A stretch of DNA of 64,000 nt from Neobacillus driksii. Its GTDB lineage: Bacteria; Bacillota; Bacilli; Bacillales; Cytobacillaceae. The notes beneath the pieces were generated by a model, which did not search any database, was not told the origin of the DNA, and saw nothing but the letters and a program-made list of their open reading frames with translations. The stretch is taken from the NCBI RefSeq assembly GCF_013409995.1, contig NZ_JACCBX010000005.1, positions 62,001 through 126,000 on the forward strand, given 5' to 3'. The position numbers and the translations under genes are program-made. Every line of letters begins with the position of its first letter. Position 1 is the stretch's first letter. Positions 24,678 through 44,330 of this stretch are shown piece by piece.

Positions 24678-25217
24678 TTAGTCTATTTCCGGTAATCTTT
24701 TAATTCTAGGATCTGTAAACACATCACTTTCATCGGTACTTCTGGTCGAGAATTCAGAGACAATCGCCCCTTCACTTCCTGCTTTGAACCAATGAAGTGT
24801 ATTCGGGTAAATGGTATATTGCTCACCTGGTTTTAAAATAATTTCATTGAATACGGTGTAGTATTCATCATCCCCTTTCGGTGGATGAGTAGAGCGATTG
24901 GCTGTTTCTTCTCCTTCTACGTATAGATAAACGGTTCCATACCGGCATCTGAAAGTCTCTTCTTTTCCTTCATCAAATTCCTTTTTTGGATGCTTATGCT
25001 CAGGACAAGTTTGGTATGGCAGTAAAGCGAGTTCCTTTGCACAAACCAGATCTGTATTGACGTACGTGATCAGTTGCAATCCTGTATCCTCTATCTTTTC
25101 CAGTCCAAAATCAGCAACTTCTAGTGCCTGTTTTTCATCCTCTGTCAAAACGATATTTGCCTTATTAAACAAGTCTAAAGCTTTGTCCTTTATTTCTTCA
25201 TATACCTGTCGGTTCAC
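24678..25217 (-). CDS. D-lyxose (D-mannose) isomerase
   Basis: The 179-aa cupin protein matches the D-lyxose ketol-isomerase family (YdaE-like). Metal-binding residues of the cupin are visible in PEHKHPKKEFDEGKEETF (about 70-90) and in the second motif around NTLHWFKAG. The family converts D-lyxose to D-xylulose, and often D-mannose to D-fructose. The start is GTG with GAGGAGG 7 nt upstream. It is the last gene of the sugar operon, 15 bp after the aldolase, so it should feed a ketose to the kinase and aldolase of the same operon. The true substrate is an inference. Confidence 0.83.
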   Translation of the reverse strand: MNRQVYEEIKDKALDLFNKANIVLTEDEKQALEVADFGLEKIEDTGLQLITYVNTDLVCAKELALLPYQTCPEHKHPKKEFDEGKEETFRCRYGTVYLYVEGEETANRSTHPPKGDDEYYTVFNEIILKPGEQYTIYPNTLHWFKAGSEGAIVSEFSTRSTDESDVFTDPRIKRLPEID

Positions 25218-25232
25218 TCTATTTCCTCCTCT

Positions 25233-26114: not shown

Positions 26115-26129
26115 CCTATCGATCTCCTT

Positions 26130-27158: not shown

Positions 27159-27202
27159 AACATGTTCACCGCCTATAAAACAATTTTTTCAGGACTAGAC
27201 TA

Positions 27203-28201
27203 CTATCCCTTCCTTCTTTTAATAACATCCGCATAAACGGCTACTAAAATGACGATCCCTTTTACAATAAATTGCCAAAATGAGCTTACACCCATTAAGT
27301 TCAGTCCATTACTAAGTACACCAATAATCAGAGCACCAATGACGGTACCACCAATCCTGCCGTAACCGCCTGTCATACTTGTTCCACCTAAAACTACCGC
27401 TGCAATCGCGTCAAGTTCGGCAGCATTTCCCGCAGTTGGCTGTCCAGAGAACATACGTGAAGCAAGTACGATCCCTGCGATTGCAGCCATTAACCCGCTA
27501 AATGCGTAAGCAAAGAACTTTACCTTCTTGATATTAATACCCGAGAATTTAGCTGCTTCTGCATTCCCTCCAACGGCATACATATGACGGCCAAGCTTGG
27601 TTTTATTCATAATAAAGTAGCAAAGGATTAACAGAATAATTAAGTATAGGACGGGTGTTGGTAAGAATCCCCCAATGTAACCTGATCCGATAAAGTTAAA
27701 AGAGTCAGACATAACACGTACTGGTTTTCCATCTGTCAGAACATAAGCGGCTCCACGTGCTATATTCATCGTTGCAAGGGTAATAATAAATGGAGGAATA
27801 ATGGTAGTAGCAGCTACATATCCATTTACCGCTCCAATTAATACCCCTACTAAAAGGCCTACAGCAACCGCTACTAAAACCGGAGCCCCTAAAGAGGCAA
27901 TTAGCGTAGTTGTCACAACACCGACCACGGCCATAATGGACCCTACAGAAAGGTCAATTCCGCCTAAAATAATAATCATGGTCATGGCCAGGGCCAAATA
28001 TAGATTGGTCGATGTTTGTCTTAATACATTTAGTAGATTATTAGATGTTAAAAAGTTTGGATTGATGACAGAAATGATAATACATAAAACGAAAAGTCCG
28101 ATTAAGATACCTAAATTATTTCGAACAAACTCTTTCATCCCAATACCAACATCTAAAAGCATATTTTCTTTCTTTTTTGCCTGAATAGACACTTGAGCCA
28201 T
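27203..28201 (-). CDS. RbsC-like sugar ABC transporter permease
   Basis: The 332-aa membrane protein has about ten spans and the typical RbsC text (GGIDLSVGSIMAVVGV near 86-101; AAVVLGGTSMTGGYGRIGGT near 267-286). It should form the channel of a CUT2-type importer with the ATPase and lipoprotein upstream. Its ribosome site (AGGAGG) lies inside the end of the ATPase gene, with one base between the two frames. Confidence 0.92.
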   Translation of the reverse strand: MAQVSIQAKKKENMLLDVGIGMKEFVRNNLGILIGLFVLCIIISVINPNFLTSNNLLNVLRQTSTNLYLALAMTMIIILGGIDLSVGSIMAVVGVVTTTLIASLGAPVLVAVAVGLLVGVLIGAVNGYVAATTIIPPFIITLATMNIARGAAYVLTDGKPVRVMSDSFNFIGSGYIGGFLPTPVLYLIILLILCYFIMNKTKLGRHMYAVGGNAEAAKFSGINIKKVKFFAYAFSGLMAAIAGIVLASRMFSGQPTAGNAAELDAIAAVVLGGTSMTGGYGRIGGTVIGALIIGVLSNGLNLMGVSSFWQFIVKGIVILVAVYADVIKRRKG

Positions 28202-28202
28202 G

Positions 28203-29693
28203 TCAATTACCTCCTGTAGCGTAATGCATAATCGTTTCTTGACTAAAACGCTCTTTATTTAATATCGTTTGAATTTTGCCCTTGCACATAACAGCAACCC
28301 GATCACTCATATTGATCACTTCTGGGAGTTCAGAGGAAATCATGATAATGGAAACACCTTCTTTAACCAACCTGTTCATAATTGAGTAGATTTCTGCCTT
28401 TGCACCAACATCAACACCTCTTGTTGGTTCATCAAGAATTAGAACTTTTGGCTTTGTTGCCAACCATCTAGAAATCAAAACTTTTTGCTGATTTCCGCCA
28501 CTTAAGTTTTTTACTTCTTGGTCAGGGCTTGGTGTTTTAATCGATAATTCCTTTATATAGTTATTGGTTTCATTATTTTCATAGTTAGAGTCAACCTTAA
28601 AGAACTTGATAAATTCATCCATAATTTTAATAGTGATGTTGTACCGGACGGATTGAATGAGGAACAATCCTTCTTCCTTTCGATTTTCTGTCACGTAAGC
28701 AATCCGATTTCTGATGGCATCATTAGGATTCTTTATCGTTGTTTTTTCACCATTTACAAATATTTCACCTTGTTCAAATGAGTCTAAACCAAAGATACAC
28801 TTCATAAGTTCGGATCTCCCTGCGCCTACTAACCCAGAAAAGCCCAGGATCTCACCTTTCCTTAATTCAAAACTCGCATTTTCAATAACACCTTTTTTCG
28901 TAAGATTACTAACTTTTAAGACACTTTCCCCGGATGGCGAAAAATCTCTAACATAGTAATTGGTTAAATCCCTGCCAACCATCATGGAGATTAATTTTTC
29001 ATTGGTCGTTTCTTTTGTTTTAACGGTCCCGATATACGTACCATCTCTCATAACCGTGATTCTATCTGTTATCTCAAATAATTCATTCATTCTATGTGAG
29101 ATATAAACCATCCCGACGCCTTGCTCTTTTAAATTGCGAATCGTTTTAAATAAGAAATCTACCTCTTTTTCCGTTAACGAAGAGGTGGGTTCATCCATTA
29201 CAATAATTTTCGAATGAAAGGATACAGCCTTTATGATTTCGATCATTTGTTGTTGAGCAACATTGAGGGTATGAATCATTGTTTTAGCAGATAACCCTAA
29301 GTCGAAATCGTTTAGAAATTTTTGAGCATTTTCATACATGGTTCTTTTATCAATTAACCCTGCTTTTGTTAAAGGTTCTCTACCTAAATAGATATTTTCT
29401 GCTATTGATAGATAAGGAACTAAACTGATTTCTTGGTGAATGATACTGATGCCATATTTCTGTGCATCTTTTACCCCTGAAATTTGAACCCCATTTCCCT
29501 TTATAAAGATTTTCCCTTCATCTATGCTGTAAATACCATTCAGTATTTTCATTAGAGTTGATTTCCCTGCACCATTTTCTCCTAGAAGTGCGTGAACTTC
29601 TCCAGCTTCAAGGTCAAAATCAACTCCTTTTAAAGCATAAACTCCAGGAAATTTCTTCGTTACCCCTTTCATTTCCAACAGTTTGCCGCTCAT
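28203..29693 (-). CDS. RbsA-like sugar ABC transporter ATP-binding protein (two NBDs)
   Basis: This 496-aa protein has two ABC cassettes, as in RbsA and MglA. The first has Walker A LLGENGAGKST and Walker B IIVMDEPTS. The second has a degenerate Walker A (GLVGAGRSEL), the signature LSGGNQQKV and Walker B VLILDEPTRG, which is usual for this class. ATG 29693 has GAGGTGG upstream and gives the normal family length; a frame from 29729 adds 12 unsupported residues. It energises uptake of the sugar bound by the lipoprotein upstream. Confidence 0.92.
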   Translation of the reverse strand: MSGKLLEMKGVTKKFPGVYALKGVDFDLEAGEVHALLGENGAGKSTLMKILNGIYSIDEGKIFIKGNGVQISGVKDAQKYGISIIHQEISLVPYLSIAENIYLGREPLTKAGLIDKRTMYENAQKFLNDFDLGLSAKTMIHTLNVAQQQMIEIIKAVSFHSKIIVMDEPTSSLTEKEVDFLFKTIRNLKEQGVGMVYISHRMNELFEITDRITVMRDGTYIGTVKTKETTNEKLISMMVGRDLTNYYVRDFSPSGESVLKVSNLTKKGVIENASFELRKGEILGFSGLVGAGRSELMKCIFGLDSFEQGEIFVNGEKTTIKNPNDAIRNRIAYVTENRKEEGLFLIQSVRYNITIKIMDEFIKFFKVDSNYENNETNNYIKELSIKTPSPDQEVKNLSGGNQQKVLISRWLATKPKVLILDEPTRGVDVGAKAEIYSIMNRLVKEGVSIIMISSELPEVINMSDRVAVMCKGKIQTILNKERFSQETIMHYATGGN

Positions 29694-29781
29694 GTCATCC
29701 ACCTCACTAAATGATAAAGGGTGGCCCAAAACGGATACTTGTACTTTGAGCCACCACTAATCTTAATTCTATTGATTCCTA

Positions 29782-30741
29782 TTACTGCCAGCCATCTACC
29801 CCATATTTCCCAACGTTTTCTTTGTTAATTAAGAAGGTTTCGACCGGCGTTCTCTTTTCGATTTTCTCTTTGTTTAGAATTTTATAAGCTACTTCTACAG
29901 ATTTAACTCCAATGGAAATGGGTGACTGTGCTCCTGTACCAACAAACGGTCCGCCTTCTGCAATGGCAGCTTTTGCATCTGGAGATCCATCCACACCATA
30001 AATGGCAATGTCTGTTTTATTGGCAGCCTTTACTGCAGCTAAAGCACCTAAGGCTGTAGGATCATTCCCACCCATGATAGCGATTACATCTTTGTTAGCT
30101 TGAAGAATATCCTCTGTCACGTCAAGGGCTGTTTCTAAGTCTCCTTTAGCATCTTGCTGGGCAACTACCTCAAAGCCTTTTCCTTTTATCGCCTCCTCAA
30201 AGCCTGCAATTCGGTCATTGATTGAATTCATCGTTGGGCTATCAAGGATGACAATTTTCCCACCATCTGGGAATCTTTTCACTAAGTCTTGACCAGCTAC
30301 ACGGCCAGCATTCTTGTTATCCGAGCCAACGTAAGCGGTAACATATTTAAAGTCTTTAACTTCTGTGTCATAGTTAATGATTGGGATACCTGCTTCTTCG
30401 AGCATAACCAGCGCAGGTCTAATTCCTTCCCAGTCTACTGGATTTAAGAAAATAGCATCGATGCCCTGTGCAATCATATCTTCAATTTGGTTAATTTGAA
30501 GAGATACATCCATTGCTGGATTCATGGTGATTAACTTATCGCCCTTACTCTCTACTTCCTTGCGAATTGACTCTTCAAGTACTTGGAAAAATGGATTATT
30601 CTGTGTCATAGAGGTGTATCCAAAAACAATTTGATCATCAGAATCCTTTCCATTCGAACCACCACTTGCACCTTCTTTGTTGCATGCAACTAATGCAAAC
30701 GTTAGTAATGCAACTAAAAACAAAGAAACAAATTTTTTCAT
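29782..30741 (-). CDS. RbsB-like sugar-binding lipoprotein
   Basis: The 319-aa protein has a lipoprotein signal with lipobox LVAC (Cys20) and a periplasmic-binding domain of the ribose/galactose type (QNNPFFQVLEES near the start, IYGVDGSPDAKAAI near the end). It should capture the sugar outside the cell for the RbsA/RbsC-like partners. ATG 30741 has GAGGGGG about 7 nt upstream; a longer frame from 30813 is rejected. A cre-like site lies about 120 bp upstream, so CcpA probably represses the transport and catabolic genes. Confidence 0.92.
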   Translation of the reverse strand: MKKFVSLFLVALLTFALVACNKEGASGGSNGKDSDDQIVFGYTSMTQNNPFFQVLEESIRKEVESKGDKLITMNPAMDVSLQINQIEDMIAQGIDAIFLNPVDWEGIRPALVMLEEAGIPIINYDTEVKDFKYVTAYVGSDNKNAGRVAGQDLVKRFPDGGKIVILDSPTMNSINDRIAGFEEAIKGKGFEVVAQQDAKGDLETALDVTEDILQANKDVIAIMGGNDPTALGALAAVKAANKTDIAIYGVDGSPDAKAAIAEGGPFVGTGAQSPISIGVKSVEVAYKILNKEKIEKRTPVETFLINKENVGKYGVDGWQ

Positions 30742-30860
30742 TGTACTTCCCCCTCTTTTAGTAAGTAAGGCTGGCTGCCTTTCTCTACACACATCATACC
30801 AAGGGCATACCAACTCGTCTTTTTAGAAAATTAACAATTTTTATAAAAATTTAACATTAT

Positions 30861-30874
30861 TTAAAGCGTTTTCA
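30861..30874 (-). promoter_or_regulatory. cre site (CcpA operator)
   Basis: Read on the minus strand, TGAAAACGCTTTAA fits the catabolite-response consensus TGWAARCGYTWNCW at 13 of 14 positions. It lies between the response regulator gene and the sugar-binding lipoprotein gene, within the promoter region of the latter. Confidence 0.7.
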
Positions 30875-30883
30875 TTTTAATAT

Positions 30884-30919
30884 AACAAAAGAGTGAGAAC
30901 CCAATTGGTCCCCACCCTC
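30884..30919 (-). terminator. probable terminator after the response regulator gene
   Basis: On the minus strand GAGGGTGGGGACC and GGGTTCTCACTC form an imperfect stem with G-T pairs around AATT, followed by TTTTG. It would separate the sensor genes from the transport genes. Confidence 0.55.
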
Positions 30920-30930
30920 CTGTTTGGAAT

Positions 30931-32151
30931 TTAGCTATCTGCCAGCAGTACAGCCCCTTTTCGATACTGATTGGGAGAAACACCTACTACCTTTTTAAAA
31001 GCAGTACTAAAATAATGCTGCGATTCATACCCTACTTGTTCTGCTATTTCATTCACTTGTAGATTGGTAGAATTCAGCAGCATCAGGGCCTTTTTGATTC
31101 TCATTTCAGTCACTAAACCTACAAAGGACGTCCCCAGCCCTTGCTTAATCATCCTGCTTAAATATACAGATGATATTTGTAACTGTTGGGCAACACATTC
31201 TAAAGTAAGATCAGGATTTGTATATTGCTCACGTATATAGGTTTTTGCACGCCTAACAATCGGAGAAAGGAGAAACTCTTCATGATCCTTCTGCTTATAG
31301 CTTTGGTAGCAAGAAGGAACAGAATCGAAATCTCCCGTGATCGACGTTGAAAAAAGTGTTGGAGATACATGTAAATTGGATTCTATCCTTCTTTCAATTT
31401 TTGAAAAGGTCTCTTCTTGTACATATCCCCACAATAATAGAAATAGCATCCCGGATTCATCACTAAAAACTAACTTTGGTTGCAGTTCCAAGATTTCTAC
31501 TATAATTTGCTTAACCCTAAAGATAAAAACTTCCTTTTCCGTCCCCTGTATGAGTGGCTGTTTACTAATCTCTAATTCTTGAATTCGAACAACTGCCAGT
31601 AATAGAGGTACTTCCTCTGGAAGCCCCCAAAAGCCTAACTGCTCCTTAATTTTTCCATCTGACAACTTTCCTTCAACCCAATTTAGACAAAACTGCTCTT
31701 GAATGAGCAATGTATTTTGTGAAATGTGATTGGAGGCTATTTCTAAATACTTTCTTTGCGCTGTCTGCGTTTGCAGTTTATGATGTACTTTTTTAAGAAC
31801 CTCTGTTAAACTATCAGGTTTAATTGGCTTTAGGATATAATCCTCAACCGCTAATCGTAAGGCCTCTTGAGCATAACTAAATTCATCATGACCCGTAATG
31901 ATGACTACCCTGCATGTTGGAAGCTTTTCTTTTAAATTCTTAATTAATGTTAATCCATTCATAATTGGCATATTCAAGTCAGCTAAAAGGACATCCACTT
32001 CATATTTTAGCGCCAATTCCAATGCTTCTTCACCATCTTCGGCTTCTGCTACCACTTCCATCCCAATTTCATGCCAGTCGATTGAATAGCGAATGCCTTC
32101 TCGAATATTGGGCTCATCGTCTGCGATTAATACTTTTAATAACGGTTGCAA
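30931..32151 (-). CDS. AraC-type response regulator (YesN-like)
   Basis: The 406-aa protein has an N-terminal receiver domain with acidic pocket DDE (11-13) and phosphate-accepting Asp58 (LLADLNMP), a middle linker, and a C-terminal double-HTH AraC domain (about 305-400, ending AFKKVVGVSPNQYRKG). It should be phosphorylated by the kinase encoded just upstream and activate the sugar uptake genes downstream. The chosen start is TTG 32151, with GAGGTGG 4 nt upstream; GTG at 32160 overlaps that site. The kinase gene ends 33 bp upstream. Confidence 0.88.
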   Translation of the reverse strand: MQPLLKVLIADDEPNIREGIRYSIDWHEIGMEVVAEAEDGEEALELALKYEVDVLLADLNMPIMNGLTLIKNLKEKLPTCRVVIITGHDEFSYAQEALRLAVEDYILKPIKPDSLTEVLKKVHHKLQTQTAQRKYLEIASNHISQNTLLIQEQFCLNWVEGKLSDGKIKEQLGFWGLPEEVPLLLAVVRIQELEISKQPLIQGTEKEVFIFRVKQIIVEILELQPKLVFSDESGMLFLLLWGYVQEETFSKIERRIESNLHVSPTLFSTSITGDFDSVPSCYQSYKQKDHEEFLLSPIVRRAKTYIREQYTNPDLTLECVAQQLQISSVYLSRMIKQGLGTSFVGLVTEMRIKKALMLLNSTNLQVNEIAEQVGYESQHYFSTAFKKVVGVSPNQYRKGAVLLADS

Positions 32152-32184
32152 ACATACCACCTCTTTACGTTTTAGGAGCTAAGT

Positions 32185-33978
32185 TCATCTATTTAAAGGA
32201 AGCAGAATTTTCACAGTTGTACCTTTACCAGGTAAACTATCAATGGATAGACCATACGGCTCTCCATACGTTAACTTAATTCTGGCTTGTACATTCATGA
32301 CTCCATAACCAATATGGTTCGTCATTTTCGTTTCCTCCAGACTGTCAAAGTTAGTAGACAAGTTTTCATTTAAAATAGCTAATCTTTCACCTGGAATTCC
32401 AACTCCATCATCTTTCACATAAAGGACTAAATTTCCATTACTTTCCTCGCCAGTAATCGAGATATGCCCCGGCCCCCTCCTTTCCTTAATGCCGTGATAA
32501 ATTGCATTTTCCACAATTGGCTGGAGGATCAGTTTAACCACTGACAGATTGTATAGTTTTGAATCAATCGAGATACTATAATTCAATTTATCTTTATATC
32601 TAGCTTTTTGGATTTTTAAATAACTAAAAATATGCTCGATTTCCTTTTCTAATGGGATGATGTCGTTTCCTTTGCTTAAGCCAATTCGAAATAACTGTGA
32701 TAAGGATTCAACTACTTCCGCCACATCCAGTGCGTCTTTCTTCCGGGCCATCCAATTAATCGTGTCCAATGTATTGTATAAAAAGTGTGGTTTAATCTGT
32801 GACTGCAGCGTCTGTAATTCCGCGTCCCGCTTTTGCCTCCCCTGGATTTCAATTAAAGAGATTAATTTGCTAATTTGTTCTAACATTTTATTGAAGCTTC
32901 GTCCTAGCATCCCAATTTCATCAGCCCGATCACCCTTATAGCGAATCGATAAATCCCCTGATTCTACTTGATTCATAAAAGCATTTAATTGATTGATCGG
33001 TTTTGACATCGAATAGGAAAGATAATAGGATGCTCCAATTCCGAACGCGCAAACTATAAATAAAAAAGTAATCACGTAAAAGTTAATTTGGCGGGCTTCC
33101 ATCACCGATTGGTTGGATGAAAATATCCCGATGGTGGTTAAATTTGCAAAGGGGGATTTTCTATAAATGAATTGCATGTTTTCTCCATCTATACTTTTGG
33201 AAAAAGTCCCTGAAGAACCTTTTTCAAACCAACTTGGTTGTATTTGATCCTTTAGCAAAGGTTGTGGTGGATAAATGAACTCCCCCTCGTCATCCATGAC
33301 CATCAAGTACCCTGATTTCCCCAATTCTATATCCTCAATCACTTCAGATATCACTCGTACCTTTAAATCAATTAATATAACTCCAATCACTGTTTGTGTT
33401 TCGGGGTCCATGATGGCGCGTGCCCCCGAAACAATTTCACTGTTCTGATAATTTACGTGAGTCTTAAAACTCCTATTCGCAGGGTGCCCGATGATCTTAA
33501 AAATACCATTATTCTCAACAGCTGTTCGATACCACTCTTCATCCGTTACCGTTTGGAAATCTTGCGCATACATCTCATTACTAATATAGTCACCCTTACT
33601 ATTTATCACTAAGATACCAGCAATCTCAGGGTTAATGGTTGTGAACCCTTGCAAAAATTGCCTCATCCCATAATGATTATCACCTCCAGGATCTCCACCA
33701 CCTTGAAGAAAAGTGTTAATTTCCGGATTAAATGAAATGATATAGGAAATATCCTGCATATTTTCTATGTATGATTCTAGCGATTTGTTTGCTTGACCAA
33801 GTAATTGCAGGGTATGCCCCGTTGTTTGTTTATCAATTACCTTATCTACCCCAATACTAATTAAAGAACCAAAACCAATAGAGGGCAGAATACTGATGAC
33901 CAGCAATAGTGCGATAATTTTAAAACGAATGGGTAAATCATTTATTTCTAATGAAGTTATTTTCCTCAATGCTATCAC
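32185..33978 (-). CDS. membrane sensor histidine kinase (YesM-like)
   Basis: This 597-aa kinase has two membrane spans (about 20-42 and 300-320) around a dCache-like extracellular sensor region. A HAMP domain (about 322-375), a His_kinase-type segment with the phospho-His in IKPHFLYNTLDTINW (about 394-408) and an HATPase domain (VKDDGVGIPGERL) follow. The start is GTG at 33978 with only a weak GAG upstream. It lies between a membrane-anchored sugar-binding protein and an AraC-type regulator. This three-component layout suggests the binding protein presents the sugar to the kinase. Confidence 0.88.
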   Translation of the reverse strand: MIALRKITSLEINDLPIRFKIIALLLVISILPSIGFGSLISIGVDKVIDKQTTGHTLQLLGQANKSLESYIENMQDISYIISFNPEINTFLQGGGDPGGDNHYGMRQFLQGFTTINPEIAGILVINSKGDYISNEMYAQDFQTVTDEEWYRTAVENNGIFKIIGHPANRSFKTHVNYQNSEIVSGARAIMDPETQTVIGVILIDLKVRVISEVIEDIELGKSGYLMVMDDEGEFIYPPQPLLKDQIQPSWFEKGSSGTFSKSIDGENMQFIYRKSPFANLTTIGIFSSNQSVMEARQINFYVITFLFIVCAFGIGASYYLSYSMSKPINQLNAFMNQVESGDLSIRYKGDRADEIGMLGRSFNKMLEQISKLISLIEIQGRQKRDAELQTLQSQIKPHFLYNTLDTINWMARKKDALDVAEVVESLSQLFRIGLSKGNDIIPLEKEIEHIFSYLKIQKARYKDKLNYSISIDSKLYNLSVVKLILQPIVENAIYHGIKERRGPGHISITGEESNGNLVLYVKDDGVGIPGERLAILNENLSTNFDSLEETKMTNHIGYGVMNVQARIKLTYGEPYGLSIDSLPGKGTTVKILLPLNR

Positions 33979-33995
33979 TCAATTCTACAGCTGCC

Positions 33996-35000
33996 TTAAT
34001 TCGCATAATATTTATCTACATTTCTTTTTGTTACCACGGCGATGCCCGTATCCATTTTCGGGAGAATATCGCTTGTATACGGATCCATTTGAGGTTTTAT
34101 CAGATCATGCCGAAGATGGAACAAGTAATTTAAAGACCAGTACCCCATGTCCCACGTTCCTTGAGCAATGGTAGCGGTAATCGTCCCGTCCTTCACCATA
34201 TCAAGCGTTTGCTTATCTGTATCAAAACTAACTATTTTAACTTGATTGCTTTTATTTTGCTGAAGAGCAGCCTCCCCAACCCCAACTCCCCCATTTGCTT
34301 CTGTTGCGAAAATCCCTTTTAAATCCGAATGTTCAGTTAATAAGTCCTGTGCCACTTGCCTGGCCACTAATTGATTGCCTTCACCATCTTTTATTGCCAC
34401 AAGTTCAATGTTAGGAAATTGCTTTTCAATCGTCTCTTTAAAACCATTCAACCGGTCGATTTGATTTTGCTGATTAGGGAGCGTGATAACAGCAACCTTT
34501 CCACTATGATTAATCATATCCGCAATTTCATGGGCTGCGGTAACACCCGCATTATAATTATTTGTGCCTATATACGAATAGGCATTGCTTTTGGGAGCAT
34601 CAGAATCAAATAAGACAACTGGAATTCCTGCGTCAATGGCTTTATAGATGGTTACATCTAGTGCATCCGGATGAATAGCAGAAATTGCAATCCCTGAAGG
34701 TTTCCTCGCAATAACCTGTTCAAGAACGGTGATTTGCTCATTCACATCATATTGGGCAGCACCCTGATATTCCACGGATACATTTAGTGTCTGTGCAGCA
34801 TCCTCAAAACCTTTTAATATATTTTTCCAATAATCAATCCCGGCTTGAAAGGTAACCATGACATATTTTTCATCCATTTCACCCTGTAGTCCTTTTGGCT
34901 TTCCATCCAAACTTGCGATGGATTCGCGTGATTGAAAGTTCATTAAAAACAGTAGAAAGGCGATGATTAATAGAGAATACACAAATAATAGTCTTTTCAC
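33996..35000 (-). CDS. membrane-anchored sugar-binding protein of a three-component sensor
   Basis: The 334-aa protein starts with one hydrophobic anchor (RLLFVYSLLIIAFLLFLMNF), has no lipobox Cys, and then has a ribose-type periplasmic-binding domain (GIDYWKNILKGFEDAA, IVSFDTDKQTLDMV). It belongs with the kinase and regulator downstream (17-bp gap) rather than with the importer, which has its own lipoprotein. The start is GTG 35000 with GAGGGGGG 6 nt upstream. A perfect -10 TATAAT lies at 35034-35039 on this strand. Confidence 0.83.
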   Translation of the reverse strand: MKRLLFVYSLLIIAFLLFLMNFQSRESIASLDGKPKGLQGEMDEKYVMVTFQAGIDYWKNILKGFEDAAQTLNVSVEYQGAAQYDVNEQITVLEQVIARKPSGIAISAIHPDALDVTIYKAIDAGIPVVLFDSDAPKSNAYSYIGTNNYNAGVTAAHEIADMINHSGKVAVITLPNQQNQIDRLNGFKETIEKQFPNIELVAIKDGEGNQLVARQVAQDLLTEHSDLKGIFATEANGGVGVGEAALQQNKSNQVKIVSFDTDKQTLDMVKDGTITATIAQGTWDMGYWSLNYLFHLRHDLIKPQMDPYTSDILPKMDTGIAVVTKRNVDKYYAN

Positions 35001-35033
35001 TTGAACCCCCCTCTCAAAATTTAACATACTAGT

Positions 35034-35039
35034 ATTATA
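35034..35039 (-). promoter_or_regulatory. -10 element of the sensor operon
   Basis: TATAAT is found on the minus strand 34 bp before the GTG start. The -35 17 bp further up (TACCAA) is poor, so an activator may be needed. Confidence 0.4.
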
Positions 35040-35188
35040 AAAAAGTAAGGGGACATTTGGTAGCGAATTTACCAGCTTTACTTATTTTGTCGGAATTAGT
35101 GGGAAGGTCAAATAGGTGCGGAACAGGAATTTTATAATTCAGTCTCTATTACTATTTTAGCAATTCACACTTTTTACTAGTTCTTCTT

Positions 35189-35410: not shown

Positions 35411-35429
35411 TTACCTAACCTCGATGTTC
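35382..35429 (+). repeat. 48-bp direct repeat, right copy
   Basis: This is the partner of 24618-24665 in the same orientation (43 of 48 identical by eye). It covers the terminator and the last codons of the intact 57-aa gene. The two copies lie 10.76 kb apart and enclose the whole sugar operon. Confidence 0.75.
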
Positions 35430-35588
35430 TACAAGGTCGATGGCCCCTAACACAATGTGTGCAAGACCGAATCCGAAAACCGTATTTGCGATCATTTTGT
35501 TGGAACCTCGTTTTTGTTTTAAGGCATACCCAGTTGCTGTTACAGCCGTACCCAATACCGTTGGAATCAAGCCCTCGCGAATATCCAC
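35415..35588 (-). CDS. 57-aa conserved-type small membrane protein
   Basis: The gene starts at GTG with GGAGGG 6 nt upstream and encodes VDIREGLIPTVLGTAVTATG, then YALKQKRGSNKMIAN, then a second hydrophobic stretch and IDLVEHRG. The two hydrophobic segments are joined by a basic loop, so it is probably a two-span membrane hairpin. Similar short proteins are common in Bacillus, some misnamed asparagine synthase. A terminator follows directly. The last codons are duplicated as a remnant at 24651-24665. The longer open frame at 35338-35604 in another phase is a shadow of this gene. Confidence 0.75.
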   Translation of the reverse strand: MDIREGLIPTVLGTAVTATGYALKQKRGSNKMIANTVFGFGLAHIVLGAIDLVEHRG

Positions 35589-36046: not shown

Positions 36047-38449
36047 CTATCTTTTTCTTTGATTTGCTCGAATTCCAGCACGAATACCGTAATAGGCTAC
36101 CTTTCCAACGGAGTAGCCTAACCGCGGGAGAGCAAAAGTGGTTTTGGCTATATCTTTAGTTACGTTCCATGCCTCTTGTTTAAAACCATCCCTCATGTGC
36201 TGAAGAAACCTACCTTCGTCATAAGCTTTTTTATAATCTTCCATCGAATTGCGGAGTTGCTCCTTTAACGTCGCCCCTTCACCATTTTTCTTGCCTTCCT
36301 CATATCGATTATGAACATGACGAACAAATCCTAAAAATTCCCCGACAAGAAGCTCAGACGTTTTCTCCAATACTTCTCCAACTGCTTCATCTCGCCAATC
36401 CCTTAACATCTCATCGGTAACCTCTTTACCTTCAGCTAAGATTTCTTCGGTTTTCAAGTCAATTCGATCACCTACATATATATCCATTGTATTAGCGATG
36501 TCCGGATTAACGTTATACGCTTCCGTCATATCGTCCATGAACTTTTCCATTTCGGAATCCACATCACCAGGCATAGCTTCCGGAAACCACTTTTCCCAAT
36601 CCAGTTTTTCCTCTAATTTGCTAACAAATTTATCTCCAACATCTTCCCAAAGCCCTTTTGTATCTTTCTCCTGATAGATATCCTGTAATACCAATTCCGT
36701 TAACAATGCTTCGGCACTTGCGTCAATTAATGTATCTACACCGTCATTTACAACATCACTTCCGGCTTCCTTCATGGTCCTTATGGCTTTATCTCCAGGA
36801 TTAATATCTTCTCGTAGACGTCTAATCAAATCCCGTTCATTTTTATCCGTCTTGGATTCCGTATTAACATTAAGTTGATCAAATAAGGAAGTATTCTCTT
36901 CGGTTTCCTTACCGAACAACGCTTCCTTCGCCTCTTGGTATCGTTCTAAAGAAGAACCATCCTCTTCGTTCTTCCCGATCAGGTCATCCTCAAAACGGAA
37001 ATTATCTAGATTGTTTTCCTTCCCTTTCTCCATCATCTCATCGAAAAAGGAGGTACTCTCTTCTGTCTCCTTACCGGACACCGCTTCCTTCACTTCTTGG
37101 TATCGTTCTAAAGAAGAACCATCCTCTTCGTTCTTCCCGATCAGGTCATCCTCAAAACGGAAATTCTCTGGATTGTTTTCCTTCCCTTTCTCCATCATCT
37201 CATCGAAAAAGGAGGTATTCTCTTCCGTCTCCTTACCAAACACGGCTTCTTTCGCCTCTTGGTATTGTTCCAACGAGAAAGTATCTTCCTCTTGCTTTTC
37301 GGCCAGGTCTTCCTCAAAACCGAAGTCTTCCGGATTGTTTTCCTTCCCTTTCTCCATCATCTCATCGAAAAAGGAGGTATTCTCTTCCGTCTTCTTACCA
37401 AACACTGCTTCTTTCGCCTCTTGGTATTGTTCCAACGAGAAAGTATCTTCCTCTTGCTTTTTGGCCAGGTCTTCCTCAAAACGGAAGTCCTCCAGATTGT
37501 TTTCCTTCCCTTTCTCCATCATCTCATCGAAAAAGGATGTATTCTCTTCCGTTTCCTTACCAAACACCGCTTCCTTCGCCTCTTGGTATCGTTCTAAAGA
37601 AGAACCATCCTCTTCGTTCTTCCCGATCAGGTCATCCTCAAAACGGAAATTATCTAGATTGTTTTCCATCCCTTTCTCCATCATCTCATCGAAAAAGGAG
37701 GTACTCTCTTCTGTCTCCTTACCGAACACCGCTTCCTTCACTTCTTGGTATCGTTCTAAAGAAGAACCATCCTCTTCGTTCTTCCCGACCAGGTCATCCT
37801 CAAAACGGAAGTCTTCCGGATTGTTTTCCTTTCCTTTCTCCATCATCTCATCGAAAAGGGAGGTATTCTCTTCCGTCTCCTTACCAAACACTGCTTCCTT
37901 CGCCTCTTGGTATCGTTCCAAAGAAAAACCGTCTTCCTCTTGCTTCCCGACCAGGTCATCCTCAAAACGGAAATCTTCTGGATTATTTCCCCTCCCTTTC
38001 TCCATCATCTCATCGAAAAAGGAAGTATTCTCTTCCGTTTCCTTACCAAACACTGCTTCCTTCGCCTCTTGGTATCGTTCCACTGAGTCACTATCTTTCT
38101 CTTGCTTGCCAGCCAGATCATCCTCAAAACGGAAATCTTCTGGATTGTTTTTCTTCCCTTTCTCCATCATTTCATCAAAAAAGGAAGTATTCTCTTCGGT
38201 TGCTTTACCAAACACCGCTTCCTTCGCCTCTTGGTAACGCTCCAGCGATGACTTCTCTCCTTGTTCTGGCGATAACTCGTTATTTCGTTCTATCGTGGTG
38301 TCCAAAGATTCTTTCGAATGCGCTTTTCCTTTTCCCGGTTCCTCCATGTCACTAAATTCAAAGGACTCATTTTCACGTTTGTAATCCGCTGGCTTCTGAG
38401 GTGCAGAGGAAGGAATGTCATCTCCTTCATCCCAATCATTTCGTTTCAT
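36047..38449 (-). CDS. acidic protein with eight tandem 54-aa repeats, partner of the HerA-like ATPase
   Basis: This 800-aa protein has a polar start (1-66), then eight full 54-aa repeats and a partial ninth (about 67-522). A representative unit opens SLERYQEAKEAVFGKETEEN and goes on to FFDEMMEKG and FRFEDDL. A non-repeated helical C-terminal region (about 525-800) ends in a basic stretch (RAGIRANQRKR). The repeats are rich in Glu and Lys and should be mostly helical; no enzyme motif is seen. AAAGGGG lies 6 nt before the ATG. It follows the ATPase gene by 27 bp, so it is the third gene of a tight operon. The repeats may serve as a scaffold or docking array, but the function is unknown. Confidence 0.8.
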   Translation of the reverse strand: MKRNDWDEGDDIPSSAPQKPADYKRENESFEFSDMEEPGKGKAHSKESLDTTIERNNELSPEQGEKSSLERYQEAKEAVFGKATEENTSFFDEMMEKGKKNNPEDFRFEDDLAGKQEKDSDSVERYQEAKEAVFGKETEENTSFFDEMMEKGRGNNPEDFRFEDDLVGKQEEDGFSLERYQEAKEAVFGKETEENTSLFDEMMEKGKENNPEDFRFEDDLVGKNEEDGSSLERYQEVKEAVFGKETEESTSFFDEMMEKGMENNLDNFRFEDDLIGKNEEDGSSLERYQEAKEAVFGKETEENTSFFDEMMEKGKENNLEDFRFEEDLAKKQEEDTFSLEQYQEAKEAVFGKKTEENTSFFDEMMEKGKENNPEDFGFEEDLAEKQEEDTFSLEQYQEAKEAVFGKETEENTSFFDEMMEKGKENNPENFRFEDDLIGKNEEDGSSLERYQEVKEAVSGKETEESTSFFDEMMEKGKENNLDNFRFEDDLIGKNEEDGSSLERYQEAKEALFGKETEENTSLFDQLNVNTESKTDKNERDLIRRLREDINPGDKAIRTMKEAGSDVVNDGVDTLIDASAEALLTELVLQDIYQEKDTKGLWEDVGDKFVSKLEEKLDWEKWFPEAMPGDVDSEMEKFMDDMTEAYNVNPDIANTMDIYVGDRIDLKTEEILAEGKEVTDEMLRDWRDEAVGEVLEKTSELLVGEFLGFVRHVHNRYEEGKKNGEGATLKEQLRNSMEDYKKAYDEGRFLQHMRDGFKQEAWNVTKDIAKTTFALPRLGYSVGKVAYYGIRAGIRANQRKR
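36880..38251 (-). repeat. tandem 162-bp coding repeats
   Basis: Eight in-frame 162-bp units plus a partial ninth. Units 4 and 8 share the rarer variant text (EVKEAV, EESTSFF, NNLDNFRF), and units 6 and 7 share EQYQEAKEAV. This suggests that blocks of units, not just single units, have been copied. Confidence 0.9.
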
Positions 38450-38476
38450 AATTTTCCCCTTTCAAAAAGGTGCCGA

Positions 38477-41314
38477 TTATTTCGGCACCTTCATTTGTTG
38501 TATAAAATTGGACCGCCCTGTGTGTGTTTTGATTTGTTTTGTGGAACTGCGCAGACAGTGCATTAAGAAACATCCGGTAAAAATATCTTTCTCCTCTTCA
38601 GACATCATTAGATCTGGCATGATACGAGTCCATCCTTCATTAAAGCGTGCTCGACTTTTTGTCTCAAGTGTGGTGTTCATGAGTTCCTCAAACGCTTGTA
38701 GACGACTTGGATCTGCGGAATAGTACTCGGAATCTTCACGTACATACCGACGGCATGTTTTACTACATCCAACGGCTGGACATTCATAAAATGGGATCAA
38801 ACGGTCTTGGCGAGTCTCCCAGTAAGTTGAGCGTTCCTTCACTTCTGTATCAGTAAAGGATTCTTGAACATTATATAACTCCTTAAAATCCCTTGATTGA
38901 ATGAGCTGCGGTCGAGGTAATTTTTCAAAATAGGTCAAGGCTTCCCCAGGTTTAAGCGATGCAAACTCACGTTTAAGTGTGTCGTCCATGTTCATGCTTT
39001 CTCCTGCCACACGTCGATCCTCTTGATCCACCAAACGGAAAGCCACTTTAATGCCGGTGTATCGGACCACTTTGCTCGATATAGCCGTTGGTGATTGATC
39101 GACTACAATAAGTCCCTCTCCCAAATTCCTTACTTCAGCTAACATATTCGTAAACAGCTCTACAGCTGTTGAGCGAGCTTTTGCTTTATCATCAGACACT
39201 TCCTTAGTTTCCGCCAATAATGTATGGGCTTCTTCCAACAACATCACATGTTTTAAAGGGGAACCCGCTAATCGGGTCACTTTGAGATAAGCGTTTAATC
39301 GAATCAACAAAAGTGACATTATAAGTGCTCTTTCATCCGGATCCATAATTGCATCTAGTTCGATGATGGTTGGCTTGCTTAAGATATCCTCAAGCGGGAC
39401 ACTGTTGACTGTATCAAACAATCTGCCCCTTGTACCGGTGAGCATGGACTCGAGGCGGACCAAACCTGCCGTCAAAATATCACTGCTAGTATTTGCCGAG
39501 TATCCTAAATCCATATTCCGAAATACTTCCACAAAGTCACGGAATGACGGAATTGGCAGACCTTGTCCTCCTTGGTTCGATGTTCTCCATCCATATTGTC
39601 GGTACGTATCATTTAATGCTTGATCAAACAATGCGGGCAGCGGGCCTCCCATCGGAAAGCTTGCCATAAACGCTGTCTTTAGCGAAGACAAATGAACTTC
39701 AAGTGTTACACCATTTGGAACATCCAATGGATTGAGGCGGAATGGCGATACCCCTTCATTTCCAACAGTAAAGATTTGCAAATCAGGTATAACAGACAGA
39801 AGTGATCGATATTCCTTTTTACTTGGTTCGATGACCAACGTTGGTAAACCGTGGTTGTTCCATAACTGTTGGACCACATCCAACGTAAAGGTAGTTTTCC
39901 CTGATCCTGGAACTCCCAAGACGAGCATATGTTTTTTCAAATCACTTAGGGTAATTTTAATTGGAACATCAGTAAGCTGATCACGTGAAACCACGTTTCC
40001 AAGTGGAATATCTCCCTGTGTCGCTTCAGGTGGAACCTGTGCTACACGGCTTCCTTTCGATTCCCGAATTGTAATGCCCGGAAATTCCCCGTTAATCGCA
40101 ATCGGCAGGCGAAAAAAACTCACTGCTTCATCTCTGGTAACCAGATATGGTAATCTTCTTAACATATGCGGGGCATCTTCACGTTCCCAAAAGGTCGCCC
40201 CGTTCGATTCGCGCCAATGCTGGACATAACCCGGATCCCAAGCACCGGTCAGAAACTTATCTACTCCATCCCGAAAGTACTCCCCTTCGAAAATATCAAT
40301 TTCTGAAGGGATCTCATCCTGGGAAGTGGAAACTAGCAAACTACGAAGACCTGAAATCAGGGAATCCGTGTAAGGTTGTTCACCAAAAACCTGGATCTTA
40401 TATAAGAAACATGGTTTTCGTAACTCATTTAGATAATATTGATAACTCGGAAATGCCAGTTTGGCGTTCGTATCAGGTGGAACATGACCAAAATAGTGAT
40501 GTTGTTGGCCATTGGCAGCTCCATGAAGGAAATTCGCAACTTGTTCGATAGCTCTCCCTTCCTCATGTGTCCACTCTGTCGTGGCAAGAGTAAAGGAGAG
40601 GGAACAGCGCTCTCCATAATTAATTAAGGATTCCGCTATAAATTCTAATGAACTTGGTAGCTTTCTTGGAAAAGGATTCGTCCAATAAAAGAAATCCCCA
40701 TTTGGAACATATTGAGAATCCGCCAGCATCTGGCTTTTATTAACCACCGCTGTATAGGATACATTGCGATGATGTTGAATCTCACTAATCTGTGACGTGG
40801 AAATTCGCTCAAGAGCGTAATATTTGTTTGGAAAGGCAGATGAGATTAGTTGCCAAAATCGATTGGTGACAGGCACAACATCCGTTCTGCTATCAGTCAG
40901 AACGCGCCCTATTAAATATAAACTAATTTTTGCCTTAGTTGGGCTATTCGGATCCGGAATGCAATCCCACACTAATTCCAATGAATTGCTAGGGAAGGTG
41001 GACAATTGATCCAATGTTCGTGAAAAATAGTCCAACGTAAGCCTTAATGCCTGTTCTTCATTTTCATGAATTTGCATGGAATCGGGGATGCGCTTGATCT
41101 CTGCGGCCCACAAACCCACCTGCCTGAATTCAGGTTCACTGTCTACCCAAATTTGCTGATTCCCCATTAAAATACCAGATTCAGTGAGTTGAAGTGCCGA
41201 TGGTTGCTCCCACTCTGCAACAGAAGCCCGCTCTGGCTGGGCCAAAGGGGCTTCTGTTACCTGGGATTCTTCCTTTAATACTTGTGTGAAAAATTTCCCC
41301 AGTTTTTTTAACAT
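38477..41314 (-). CDS. HerA/VirB4-like P-loop ATPase
   Basis: The 945-aa protein has an unrecognised N-terminal half (1-430) and a HerA/FtsK-superfamily ATPase domain (about 435-830). Walker A is GVPGSGKTT (467-475) and Walker B with catalytic Glu is VMLLEEAH (691-698). A conserved VVDQSPTAIS segment and arginine-rich text follow. Near the end, ECPAVGC and a CRR segment give a possible zinc site. Such ATPases pump DNA or protein substrates as hexamers. There is no membrane span. GGAG sits across the end of the upstream gene, with one base between frames. No nuclease, relaxase or secretion gene is adjacent, so this is not an obvious defence or conjugation operon. Confidence 0.83.
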   Translation of the reverse strand: MLKKLGKFFTQVLKEESQVTEAPLAQPERASVAEWEQPSALQLTESGILMGNQQIWVDSEPEFRQVGLWAAEIKRIPDSMQIHENEEQALRLTLDYFSRTLDQLSTFPSNSLELVWDCIPDPNSPTKAKISLYLIGRVLTDSRTDVVPVTNRFWQLISSAFPNKYYALERISTSQISEIQHHRNVSYTAVVNKSQMLADSQYVPNGDFFYWTNPFPRKLPSSLEFIAESLINYGERCSLSFTLATTEWTHEEGRAIEQVANFLHGAANGQQHHYFGHVPPDTNAKLAFPSYQYYLNELRKPCFLYKIQVFGEQPYTDSLISGLRSLLVSTSQDEIPSEIDIFEGEYFRDGVDKFLTGAWDPGYVQHWRESNGATFWEREDAPHMLRRLPYLVTRDEAVSFFRLPIAINGEFPGITIRESKGSRVAQVPPEATQGDIPLGNVVSRDQLTDVPIKITLSDLKKHMLVLGVPGSGKTTFTLDVVQQLWNNHGLPTLVIEPSKKEYRSLLSVIPDLQIFTVGNEGVSPFRLNPLDVPNGVTLEVHLSSLKTAFMASFPMGGPLPALFDQALNDTYRQYGWRTSNQGGQGLPIPSFRDFVEVFRNMDLGYSANTSSDILTAGLVRLESMLTGTRGRLFDTVNSVPLEDILSKPTIIELDAIMDPDERALIMSLLLIRLNAYLKVTRLAGSPLKHVMLLEEAHTLLAETKEVSDDKAKARSTAVELFTNMLAEVRNLGEGLIVVDQSPTAISSKVVRYTGIKVAFRLVDQEDRRVAGESMNMDDTLKREFASLKPGEALTYFEKLPRPQLIQSRDFKELYNVQESFTDTEVKERSTYWETRQDRLIPFYECPAVGCSKTCRRYVREDSEYYSADPSRLQAFEELMNTTLETKSRARFNEGWTRIMPDLMMSEEEKDIFTGCFLMHCLRSSTKQIKTHTGRSNFIQQMKVPK

Positions 41315-41315
41315 C

Positions 41316-41804
41316 TTACACTCCTACAGGCACTTCAAGACCTGCAAAACCTTTTTTCAAGTTTAGGTTATGAAGTGAGAAGTCTACCACACTAGTAACC
41401 GAGTTCCAGAACATAGAATATTCTTGTTGATCAAATGGATTCTGACTTAAGTTATAAGCTAAACCAGCCGCTCCTGGATTTTTAGAAGCAACCGCTGTTA
41501 AACTAGCACCTAATTGTTTAAACATGCTTGGCTCCGATAACATATATGTAAAGACATGCAGGAAGTTACCATATCCCTCAGCTGAGATTAAAATCTTTAC
41601 GTCCTTTTTAGGGCCCTCAATAACTAGAAATTGTTTAGAACCTTTTAACATACCTGCTGAAACCTTTTCGAGACCTGCTTTAACAGGAAGATTCGCCGCT
41701 CTTAGTTCTTCCTCAATACGAGTCATTACTTGTGGTGCCATTGACGCCCTATCCCAGAAAATATGGGCATCCTCTTGAACAATATTCATTGCAGAAATTT
41801 TCAT
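41316..41804 (-). CDS. unknown protein, first gene of the HerA-like operon
   Basis: This 162-aa soluble protein (MKISAMNIVQEDAHIFWDRA...) has no recognised motif, signal peptide or membrane span. Its middle looks alpha/beta (GSKQFLVIEG, DVKILISAEG). Its second half is helical with small residues (GASLTAVASKNPGAAGLAY). AAGGGGAGAG lies about 9 nt before the ATG. The frame ends one base before the ATPase start, so the two are translationally coupled. It may be the partner or substrate of the ATPase; nothing more can be said from sequence. Confidence 0.7.
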   Translation of the reverse strand: MKISAMNIVQEDAHIFWDRASMAPQVMTRIEEELRAANLPVKAGLEKVSAGMLKGSKQFLVIEGPKKDVKILISAEGYGNFLHVFTYMLSEPSMFKQLGASLTAVASKNPGAAGLAYNLSQNPFDQQEYSMFWNSVTSVVDFSLHNLNLKKGFAGLEVPVGV

Positions 41805-42470: not shown

Positions 42471-43349
42471 TTAATTGAACTTCATTATATATTCAGCCTG
42501 AAAGGTTTCTCCTGCTCCAAGCTTATTCACACCGAACTTCTCCTTTAAGTTTCCTGTTGAATCATAGGTATCTGCCATGCCGTACCAAGGTTCAATGCAA
42601 ACAAACGGAGCAATCGTTCCATCCGTTTCCATATACTTAGACCAAATCCCAACAAACGGAAAACCTTGGAACATAACTTCTACACCATGTCCTGACTGTT
42701 TAGATTCCAATGTGACTTTATCGATATTGCTATAAATTAGGGCATCATGGGCAAATAAGGAGCTTGAAAGTGGTATTGTTGAAAGATTAGTTACTATCCC
42801 TTTCTCATGAATGAGGGAATTCTCTAGCTCATATTCCATCACACTCTTATTTGGCGCCGGTGTAAGGTTCACCTGGTAATCTTTAATGGCCTCATTTTCT
42901 TCCAGTGGAGTCTTAAATGCAGGATGTGCACCAATTGAAAAATACATCTCTTCCTTATTTACATTCAGGATTTGCCACTGAACAATCAACGAGTTCTCTT
43001 TGAGACAATATTGGATCTTCGCTGTAAAGTCATAAGGATATACATGAACGTGGGTGCCAAGGGACTCATATACAAAAGAAACGGTGGTTGATGTCTGTTC
43101 AGCCACTTCGAATTCAACATCACGCAGAAAACCATGCTGCGACATCTTGTAGGTCTGGCCATTCAGTTGATATTGGTCTTCCTTTAATCGCCCCACAATC
43201 GGAAATAAGACAGGAGAGACTCGACCCCAATAAGCCTCATCCCCTGTCCACATATAATCCAGCCCATTTTTCTTATGCATCACTTTACGTACTTCTGCAC
43301 CGTGCCTATCAATATTAACCATCAACCAATCATTCTCAATAACAATCAT
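42471..43349 (-). CDS. aldose 1-epimerase family protein (LacX-like)
   Basis: This 292-aa beta-sandwich protein resembles galactose mutarotase-like LacX proteins. Active-site text is visible: FPIVGRL and SQHGFLRD (about 72-79), SIGAHPAF with the second His (about 136-143), and the C-terminal CIEPWYGM with the catalytic Glu. It should interconvert alpha and beta forms of a free sugar such as galactose released by LacZ. GAGGG lies 7 nt before the ATG. It is on the same strand as lacZ but about 2 kb away, with the MORN and 150-aa genes between. Confidence 0.85.
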   Translation of the reverse strand: MIVIENDWLMVNIDRHGAEVRKVMHKKNGLDYMWTGDEAYWGRVSPVLFPIVGRLKEDQYQLNGQTYKMSQHGFLRDVEFEVAEQTSTTVSFVYESLGTHVHVYPYDFTAKIQYCLKENSLIVQWQILNVNKEEMYFSIGAHPAFKTPLEENEAIKDYQVNLTPAPNKSVMEYELENSLIHEKGIVTNLSTIPLSSSLFAHDALIYSNIDKVTLESKQSGHGVEVMFQGFPFVGIWSKYMETDGTIAPFVCIEPWYGMADTYDSTGNLKEKFGVNKLGAGETFQAEYIMKFN

Positions 43350-43451: not shown

Positions 43452-44288
43452 TTACGGATAAATCCACTCCCCATCTTCTGTGTAATTTCCATCTACAAAA
43501 TTCCCTTTGAACATTGTTCCATCTGGCCAAGTCATTTCACCGTAACCATTCTGTAAGTTATTTCGGAACTGCCCTTTATAAATACTTCCATCCGACCATG
43601 TAAGGGTACCTTCTCCATGGAAGTAGCCATTTGCGAAATCACCATCGTATTTATTTCCATCTGCCCAGGTGAGCATTCCATATCCGTGATATAAACCATT
43701 CACAAAATTCCCTTTATACGAGCTTCCATCATCATAAACAACCTCTTCATAATAATAGGGGCTTTCTTCTGTTACAGTGTTTTCAATAACTTCACTTGTA
43801 TCTACTGATGTTTCCTCCTCCACGATTTCAGTTGCATTAACTTCTTCTATTTGCACACTTTGAGTGTTCTCATCTGGAACATCTGCTGGTACCTCAACTT
43901 GTGCTCGTGGTTCCTCTTCGTTATTAGTTTGACCTTCATTTTTTTCTTCTTCTATTGACTCCATATTCCTTACACTATTATGTACAACCTCTTGAGACTC
44001 TTGCTCTGCTGTTTTATCTATTTCATGAGACAATAAAGAACCAGTCGCAAGTAACAGAATCGTGAGACCTGTAGTGATATATTTGCTACTCTTCTTTTTT
44101 ACTATAAAAAAACAAATCAATCCAAGTACAAGACTAATCCAAGGGAATTCTATCAATAAAACTGCTAGTACTGCTGACAAGCAAAATGACATTTTTGATG
44201 AAAAATGAAAAATCAATTTTAAAAATAGGAAGATGATGATTCCTAAAACAACATATACTCCAAGCGAAAATTCTAATATAGCATCCAT
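43452..44288 (-). CDS. membrane protein with C-terminal MORN repeats
   Basis: The 278-aa protein has about four N-terminal membrane spans (residues 4-100) and an acidic, probably disordered linker (about 105-195, rich in Glu). Four MORN repeats follow (about 200-272), with text like YKGNFVNGLYHGYGMLTWADG. MORN repeats bind lipids or proteins and often serve as scaffolds. ATG 44288 has TTGGAGGG 4 nt upstream; the longer frame from 44327 adds 13 unsupported residues. The membrane topology should leave the MORN part either outside the cell or in the cytosol; this cannot be settled here. Confidence 0.75.
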   Translation of the reverse strand: MDAILEFSLGVYVVLGIIIFLFLKLIFHFSSKMSFCLSAVLAVLLIEFPWISLVLGLICFFIVKKKSSKYITTGLTILLLATGSLLSHEIDKTAEQESQEVVHNSVRNMESIEEEKNEGQTNNEEEPRAQVEVPADVPDENTQSVQIEEVNATEIVEEETSVDTSEVIENTVTEESPYYYEEVVYDDGSSYKGNFVNGLYHGYGMLTWADGNKYDGDFANGYFHGEGTLTWSDGSIYKGQFRNNLQNGYGEMTWPDGTMFKGNFVDGNYTEDGEWIYP

Positions 44289-44330
44289 GTTACCCTCCAA
44301 AAATTCAAGAAAATGGCCTTTCTCCATGAG

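Follow-up and report, generated by a model that had tools for sequence, protein, structure and literature searches.

A VirB4/HerA-type ATPase coupled to an acidic repeat protein in Neobacillus driksii: a putative branch of a widespread ATPase-effector family

Introduction

What would a ring ATPase related to DNA pumps be doing when the gene directly downstream of it encodes a long, acidic repeat protein? The question is raised by a three-gene operon on the minus strand of a 64,000-nucleotide stretch of the genome of the soil bacterium Neobacillus driksii (contig NZ_JACCBX010000005.1; we call the whole stretch the window), which encodes a small protein (P1, 162 residues), a VirB4/HerA-type ATPase (945 residues) and the repeat protein (800 residues), with gaps of 1 and 27 bp between them. 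A first-pass annotation of this DNA had described three coupled open reading frames (ORFs) without a relaxase or channel, and had proposed that they form a self-contained machine. The layout and the missing partners are borne out by our analysis, whereas self-containment finds no support, since P1 is rare and the constant pair is the ATPase and the effector gene downstream of it. The reading that we favor, at somewhat below even odds (about 0.45), places the operon in a widespread family, as one of its branches. In this family the gene for a VirB4/HerA-type ATPase immediately precedes that for a modular effector whose N-terminus is an acidic leader, and the motor would unfold, load or export that effector.

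Results

Relatives of the ATPase are set apart from ordinary HerA by a wide gap in phmmer score (at least 125 bits versus at most 33). In a FastTree phylogeny of 115 sequences the window ATPase pairs with that of a Priestia megaterium plasmid (support 1.0), and this pair joins 31 ATPases of ∼890 residues from several phyla (0.999); we refer to this grouping as the full-length clade. The HerA outgroup was not monophyletic and rooting failed, so only this local clade was used from the tree. From 120 family loci entered we kept 110, the rest being duplicates or lacking an ATPase ORF of at least 100 bits (L046, with a truncated ATPase, was left out), and in the 37-locus set L115, L120 and L178 were dropped because no ATPase ORF was called. 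The +1 gene, defined as an ORF falling between −60 and +400 bp relative to the ATPase gene, is present in 89 of the 110 loci; the other 21 end there in a contig end or a gap.

Toxin-type domains are frequent at this +1 position. One of seven toxin-type models fits 35 of the 89 +1 proteins, compared with 3 of 1307 other ORFs of the same loci, although the models were built from these loci, so that training members match by construction, and the control includes spurious ORFs; 12 of the 35 matches come from loci outside the training. Types anchored in Pfam make up 21 of the 89 (LHH 11, WHH/colicin DNase 6, papain fold 2, TNT 2), and 14 were labeled by eye as metallopeptidase-like (8), PD-(D/E)XK-like (4) or AHH-like (2), labels that are motif readings with no Pfam match over the cut-off. 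When 35 +1 proteins were scanned directly against Pfam, 14 passed the curated cut-off for a toxin-type domain and 21 showed none, including those of the window, Priestia, L121, L097, L096, L101, L107, L118 and L170. The earlier remark that no nuclease is present holds for the window, where a Pfam scan of six genes found no NurA, relaxase or nuclease in the operon, but not for the relatives, which carry nuclease or other toxin domains exactly where the window has its repeat protein. Given this correspondence of position, the window set is better understood as a branch of a wide ATPase-effector family than as an isolated machine.

The C-terminal domains of these effectors are exchanged between closely related loci. 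Five loci from different Bacillales genomes (L012, L013, L019, L020 and L044) share an operon of a 563-aa protein, the ATPase, the effector and a SUKH immunity protein, with the nuclease C-termini swapped. Their ATPases are 93–95% identical and their toxin N-termini 75–93%, whereas C-termini of different type are 15–23% identical and the accompanying immunity proteins 16–25%; for pairs of the same type the figures are 76–86 and 90–97%, respectively. Near-identical ATPases with unrelated toxin C-termini and swapped immunity genes amount to a polymorphic toxin signature. In the full-length clade, ATPases that are 52–83% identical likewise occur with C-termini of different type. The +2 position is occupied by SUKH proteins in 17 of 77 loci, each of the 17 outside that clade; within the clade, short ORFs of 74–105 aa follow several of the toxins and may be immunity genes. 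A further observation concerns loci L011, L077, L082, L085, L087 and L167, in which a Gly/Ser/Ala-rich hydrophobic protein of ∼210 to 320 aa is encoded directly or one gene after the ATPase; it may be a membrane-active effector of that branch.

A second property of the +1 proteins is an acidic start. The net acidic fraction of their first 100 residues has a median of 0.22 in the 24 proteins of the full-length clade, whereas that of 224 same-strand control ORFs is 0.00 (p = 1e-12), and 21 of the 24 lie above the control 95th percentile. For the 65 proteins of the other members the median is 0.08, compared with 0.01 in 517 controls (p = 2.5e-13), and 27 of the 65 exceed the 95th percentile. Kinship among loci is ignored in these tests. 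An earlier count placed 22 of 25 +1 proteins above the 95th and 20 of 25 above the 99th percentile of 269 ORFs, the exceptions being L102–L104. The window protein itself scores 0.10 in its first 100 residues, barely above the 95th percentile of those 269 ORFs (0.086); residues 67–540 are net acidic by 87 charges. Tandem 54-aa repeats run from residue 68 to about residue 525 (Table 1), and a 408-aa plus-strand ORF opposite them is, in our reading, a by-product of the repeats. The nonrepeat C-terminal region is related to that of the Priestia protein (31.8% identical by tblastn across residues 114–257 of the query, E 6e-10; 30% in the alignment). Its PDB profile matches are weak (best E 0.011), as is an amphipathic tail, and we took no reading from either. 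Scanned against Pfam, NCBIfam, PADLOC and PHROGs, the repeat protein reached the cut-off of no family.

The closest counterpart of the whole operon is the Priestia megaterium plasmid, which has the three genes in identical order, an ATPase 51–52% identical to that of the window (52% over 94% of the query) and a repeat protein with another repeat unit and a related C-terminus. In a second genome, G080 (an assembly of 720 contigs with 8% contamination), P1 is followed by a zinc-ribbon/TPR protein, an ATPase 35% identical over residues 87–854, and an acidic repeat protein that ends in a papain-fold deamidase domain. Joint conservation of the three genes is thus exact in Priestia and holds in G080 with one extra gene between P1 and the ATPase. 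Homologs of all three in the same order on the Priestia plasmid make the set more than chance, and the homologs are not confined to known conjugative, secretion or defense systems.

With the host genome counted, the ATPase finds a match at E ≤ 1e-3 in 9 of 61 genus, 15 of 299 order and 42 of 398 phylum genomes; 8 of the 42 exceed 100 bits and the others are ordinary HerA. A first contig scan with the single ATPase sequence as query gave no match. A GTDB contig alignment search returned at least 80 ATPase loci, many from metagenome bins, and 6 viral contigs. Family ATPases are present on the viral contigs L173, L174 and L175, and the +1 genes of the last two fit the metallopeptidase-like model; phage records hold two weak, unannotated matches. 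The Escherichia coli plasmid pTW10590_133 (L080:2272-10671) carries two dynamins, the ATPase, an LHH nuclease and a SUKH gene, and when 5426 complete E. coli genomes were compared, one of them contained this ATPase DNA, on one plasmid. On a Photobacterium plasmid (L082:2850-14230) the family ATPase is flanked by a DUF2357 protein on one side and, at a greater distance, by a Csm6 gene on the other.

The first-pass label of the ATPase as HerA/VirB4-like is right. It matches the DUF87/HerA core model PF01935 of Pfam with 34 bits (cut-off 23.2), and a structure model built from 26 sequences (predicted local distance difference test score, pLDDT, 77.4; predicted template modeling score, pTM, 0.55) has a predicted core fold nearest to VirB4 (4ag5_A, Z 34.1, 2.8 Å over 352 residues), DndH-C (7es4, Z 33.9) and HerA (4d2i_A, Z 28.1), with EccC (Z 17.5) and EssC (Z 17.1) further off, all by VIA-align. 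The NCBIfam HerA equivalogs give 34.4–48 bits, far under their cut-offs of 800–970; the top NCBIfam match, at 84 bits under a cut-off of 650, is NF033849 (“serine-rich protein”), a model that names no function. The Walker A motif stands at the residues first proposed, and the Walker B stretch spans residues 687–697, overlapping the 691–698 given before. The Cys-rich tail was likewise correctly noted, with Cys-845, Cys-854 and Cys-915 invariant and Cys-850 nearly so among 27 aligned relatives; to judge from this conservation it is probably a metal site.

P1 is a rarer component. Homologs were found in Priestia (tblastn E 2e-19), G080 (E 4.7e-5) and a third genome, G549 (profile E 6.8e-44); counting the host each time, P1 occurs in 1 of 60 relatives, 2 of 193 genomes of the taxonomic family and 2 of 299 phylum genomes, and it occurs in 1 of 200 genomes of the family of G549. 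P1 has no match over the cut-off in the four family libraries used for the repeat protein, and a PDB profile search was empty at E 0.1. The fold matches of its structure model (3 sequences, pLDDT 76.3, pTM 0.75), which are helix-grip, KA1-like and phosphomannomutase-tail (best Z 8.9), are generic, and we drew no function from them; a role as adaptor is possible.

Other companions divide between the two parts of the family. In the full-length clade an SPFH protein accompanies 17 of 33 members and zinc-ribbon/TPR proteins 20 of 33 (two models, with 6 and 14), with no dynamin, whereas outside it dynamins accompany 23 of 77 members, with no SPFH or TPR protein; none of these companions is found in the window. 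In G549 (L178:306-10072), P1, zinc-ribbon/TPR and SPFH genes adjoin an EssC-type FHA-FtsK ATPase, YukD and a protein whose resemblance to WXG100 stays below the threshold, and an ATPase of the present family was not found in that 20 kb. The three genes are possibly a new accessory set of the type VII secretion system (T7SS).

Around the operon, a 10-kb sugar-transport block downstream (25116–35072) shares 89% identity with genome G015, a likeness that stops at 35072, ∼1 kb beyond the operon. The flanking genes were rejected as markers of an islet, their distribution in the genus being patchy (11 and 27 of 61 genomes at E ≤ 1e-60); the flanks gave only the end of synteny at 35072. Upstream lie an aldose-1-epimerase-like gene (42471–43349), with a second copy 90% identical elsewhere on the contig, and a MORN-repeat protein with an N-terminal hydrophobic stretch (43452–44327). 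The host genome comprises 6.5 Mb in 31 contigs.

Table 1. Features of the operon, in window coordinates
Feature	Position	Strand	Basis or remark
P1, small protein, 162 aa	41316..41804	-	predicted alpha+beta fold
VirB4/HerA-type P-loop ATPase, 945 aa	38477..41314	-	DUF87 match; predicted fold
Walker A, residues 467-475, GVPGSGKTT	39890..39916	-	G467, P469, G470, G472, K473, T474 invariant among 27 aligned relatives
Walker B region, residues 687-697, LKHVMLLEEAH	39224..39256	-	E694, E695, A696, H697 invariant in 27 relatives
Cys cluster, residues 845-854 (C915 further on)	38753..38782	-	conservation in 27 relatives
Acidic repeat protein of 800 aa; candidate effector or cargo	36047..38449	-	ORF; no family over cut-off
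Tandem array of 54-aa (162-bp) repeats, 8 complete copies plus 1 partial; acidic leader (proposed)	36875..38248	-	repeat analysis
C-terminal nonrepeat region, about residues 541-800 (∼260)	36047..36829	-	shared with Priestia; tblastn, alignment

Discussion

The ATPase family, the gene coupling and the acidity and modularity of the +1 proteins are observed; that the ATPase handles the effector protein is something we infer, and the first-pass suggestion that the repeat protein is a substrate of the ATPase is plausible. The ATPase would bind the acidic leader, which in this operon is drawn out into nine repeats of 54 aa, and pull it through the ring, possibly because of a likeness between a polyanion and the DNA that such rings usually move. 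Threading would unfold the effector, whose active part would be the C-terminal 260 residues, and deliver it, most likely across a membrane into another cell, with P1 serving as adaptor or chaperone. We somewhat favor export over intracellular defense because of the swapping of toxins together with their immunity genes, the VirB4-type fold and the companions shared with T7SS. More tentatively, the family may represent a hitherto undescribed class of toxin delivery without a type IV secretion system (T4SS) or T7SS around it. A stand-alone VirB4/HerA-type ring ATPase would recognize a leader that is polyanionic, and in this DNA-like, and would pump modular effectors, its partners at the membrane being SPFH/TPR proteins or dynamins. 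The operons of Neobacillus and Priestia would be the minimal form of this class, which would extend over Bacillota, Bacteroidota, Planctomycetota, Verrucomicrobiota, Synergistota and others.

The known systems share parts of this arrangement. VirB4/TrwK of T4SS is the nearest match to the predicted core and can be aligned sequentially over the whole chain, but here the ATPase is coupled to an effector gene and no other T4SS gene lies in the operon (VirB3, B6, B8 and B10 were absent from the six Pfam-scanned window genes, the genome not having been searched for them). HerA, including its Sir2-HerA and DUF4297-HerA forms, shares the DUF87 domain and the core fold (Z about 22–28), but Pfam and PADLOC scans of the operon found no Sir2 or DUF4297 effector gene beside the ATPase, NurA is missing, and the ATPase has a long N-terminal region and the Cys tail. 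The DndH and HerA/FtsK capture systems, as covered by the accessible part of PMC10853773, are close in core fold, but no Dnd genes lie at the window operon; the terms “immunity protein,” “polymorphic,” “LHH” and “dynamin” do not occur in that part of the paper. The polymorphic toxin systems of Zhang 2012 (PMC3482391), in the portion of that text available, resemble the window's relatives in their variable LHH, WHH/colicin DNase and papain-fold C-termini with SUKH proteins; FtsK/HerA ATPases appear there solely as the T7SS motor YueA, whereas here the motor comes from a distinct VirB4/HerA family and the effectors have an acidic leader in place of WXG or LXG. The T7SS motor EssC belongs to the same ATPase superfamily, but the window ATPase has neither FHA nor repeated FtsK domains (FtsK_SpoIIIE reaches 17.9 bits, below the Pfam cut-off of 24). 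The literature searched, with most subscription journals and bioRxiv outside reach, contained no description of the ATPase-effector coupling.

Several results weigh against the export of an effector by this motor. More than half of the +1 proteins (54 of 89) match none of the toxin models, and 3 of 25 (those of L102–L104) are membrane proteins or neutral. The PDB matches of the ATPase sequence profile are all HerA-type and none is VirB4, and the whole-chain match to TrwK/VirB4 aligns 594 residues at a root mean square deviation of 21.8 Å, so that the N-terminal likeness to VirB4 is weak, at most suggestive. Neither a membrane span, nor a signal, nor a channel was seen in the three window proteins, in which no 19-residue segment is strongly hydrophobic (highest Kyte-Doolittle mean 1.28). 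YukC/EssB was not found in the host genome (0 of 1), a control search matching Bacillus subtilis, 1 of 14 named genomes; with no YukC, we rejected a T7SSb partner in the host. A recognized toxin domain was not found at the C-terminus of the window effector with the four libraries, nor was a dedicated immunity gene found downstream, where the sole credible ORF between 35072 and 36047 encodes 57 aa, and the Priestia locus likewise shows no immunity gene. That 57-aa ORF (35415–35588) we rejected as an immunity gene, as it occurs in 25 of 61 genus genomes, at other loci; it is small and hydrophobic, 65–98% identical in many of those genomes, with a terminator-like hairpin behind it. Given the lack of a known toxin match and of an immunity gene in the window, we can only infer that its effector is toxic.

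An intracellular role in defense or abortive infection, somewhat less probable than export in our view, would have the ATPase, with P1 or the dynamins as sensors, detect invading DNA or membrane stress and release or position the effector in the same cell, the immunity protein silencing it until then. In defense, nuclease or Sir2 effectors are known to be paired with HerA-type ATPases (PDB titles; accessible parts of PMC10853773 and PMC12839542), the PADLOC HerA and mad8 models match the ATPase core, and many of the +1 toxins are small and without a secretion domain. The WYL regulators (L077, L078, L045) and dynamins beside some members suit this role too, and so count against export. However, the toxins and SUKH proteins tested match no PADLOC model and the dynamins match LeoA only or nothing; moreover, the swapping of C-termini with matching immunity genes is typical of weapons used between cells, and the P1/TPR/SPFH companions adjoin a T7SS in one genome.

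It is unlikely that the ATPase is instead a DNA-processing or conjugation-derived motor that moves DNA as HerA or VirB4 does, with the acidic repeat protein acting as a DNA-mimic regulator or ring scaffold and not as cargo. The nearest folds, the potential of acidic repeats to mimic DNA, the location of several relatives on plasmids with relaxases and a weak, sub-cut-off similarity to CedD (NCBIfam) would fit such a motor, but the toxin domains that fill the +1 position in many relatives and the operon's lack of a relaxase, NurA or nuclease would not. A decayed or domesticated locus, left non-functional by loss of the effector domain and immunity gene, is very improbable, because despite the missing toxin domain and immunity gene and the nearby end of synteny, the three frames are intact, the catalytic motifs are conserved and the C-terminal region is kept in Priestia, also without a recognized toxin.

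If the motor does move the effector, as in the reading that we favor, the family would constitute a new energized route for bacterial toxins, in which a ring of the DNA-pump type reads an acidic protein leader instead of DNA. If it acts inside the cell, chromosomes and plasmids would carry a large family of defense systems, made of ATPase, effector and immunity protein, that has so far gone uncounted. In both cases the acidic-leader rule offers a simple finder of new toxin and immunity families, by way of the gene that follows the ATPase.

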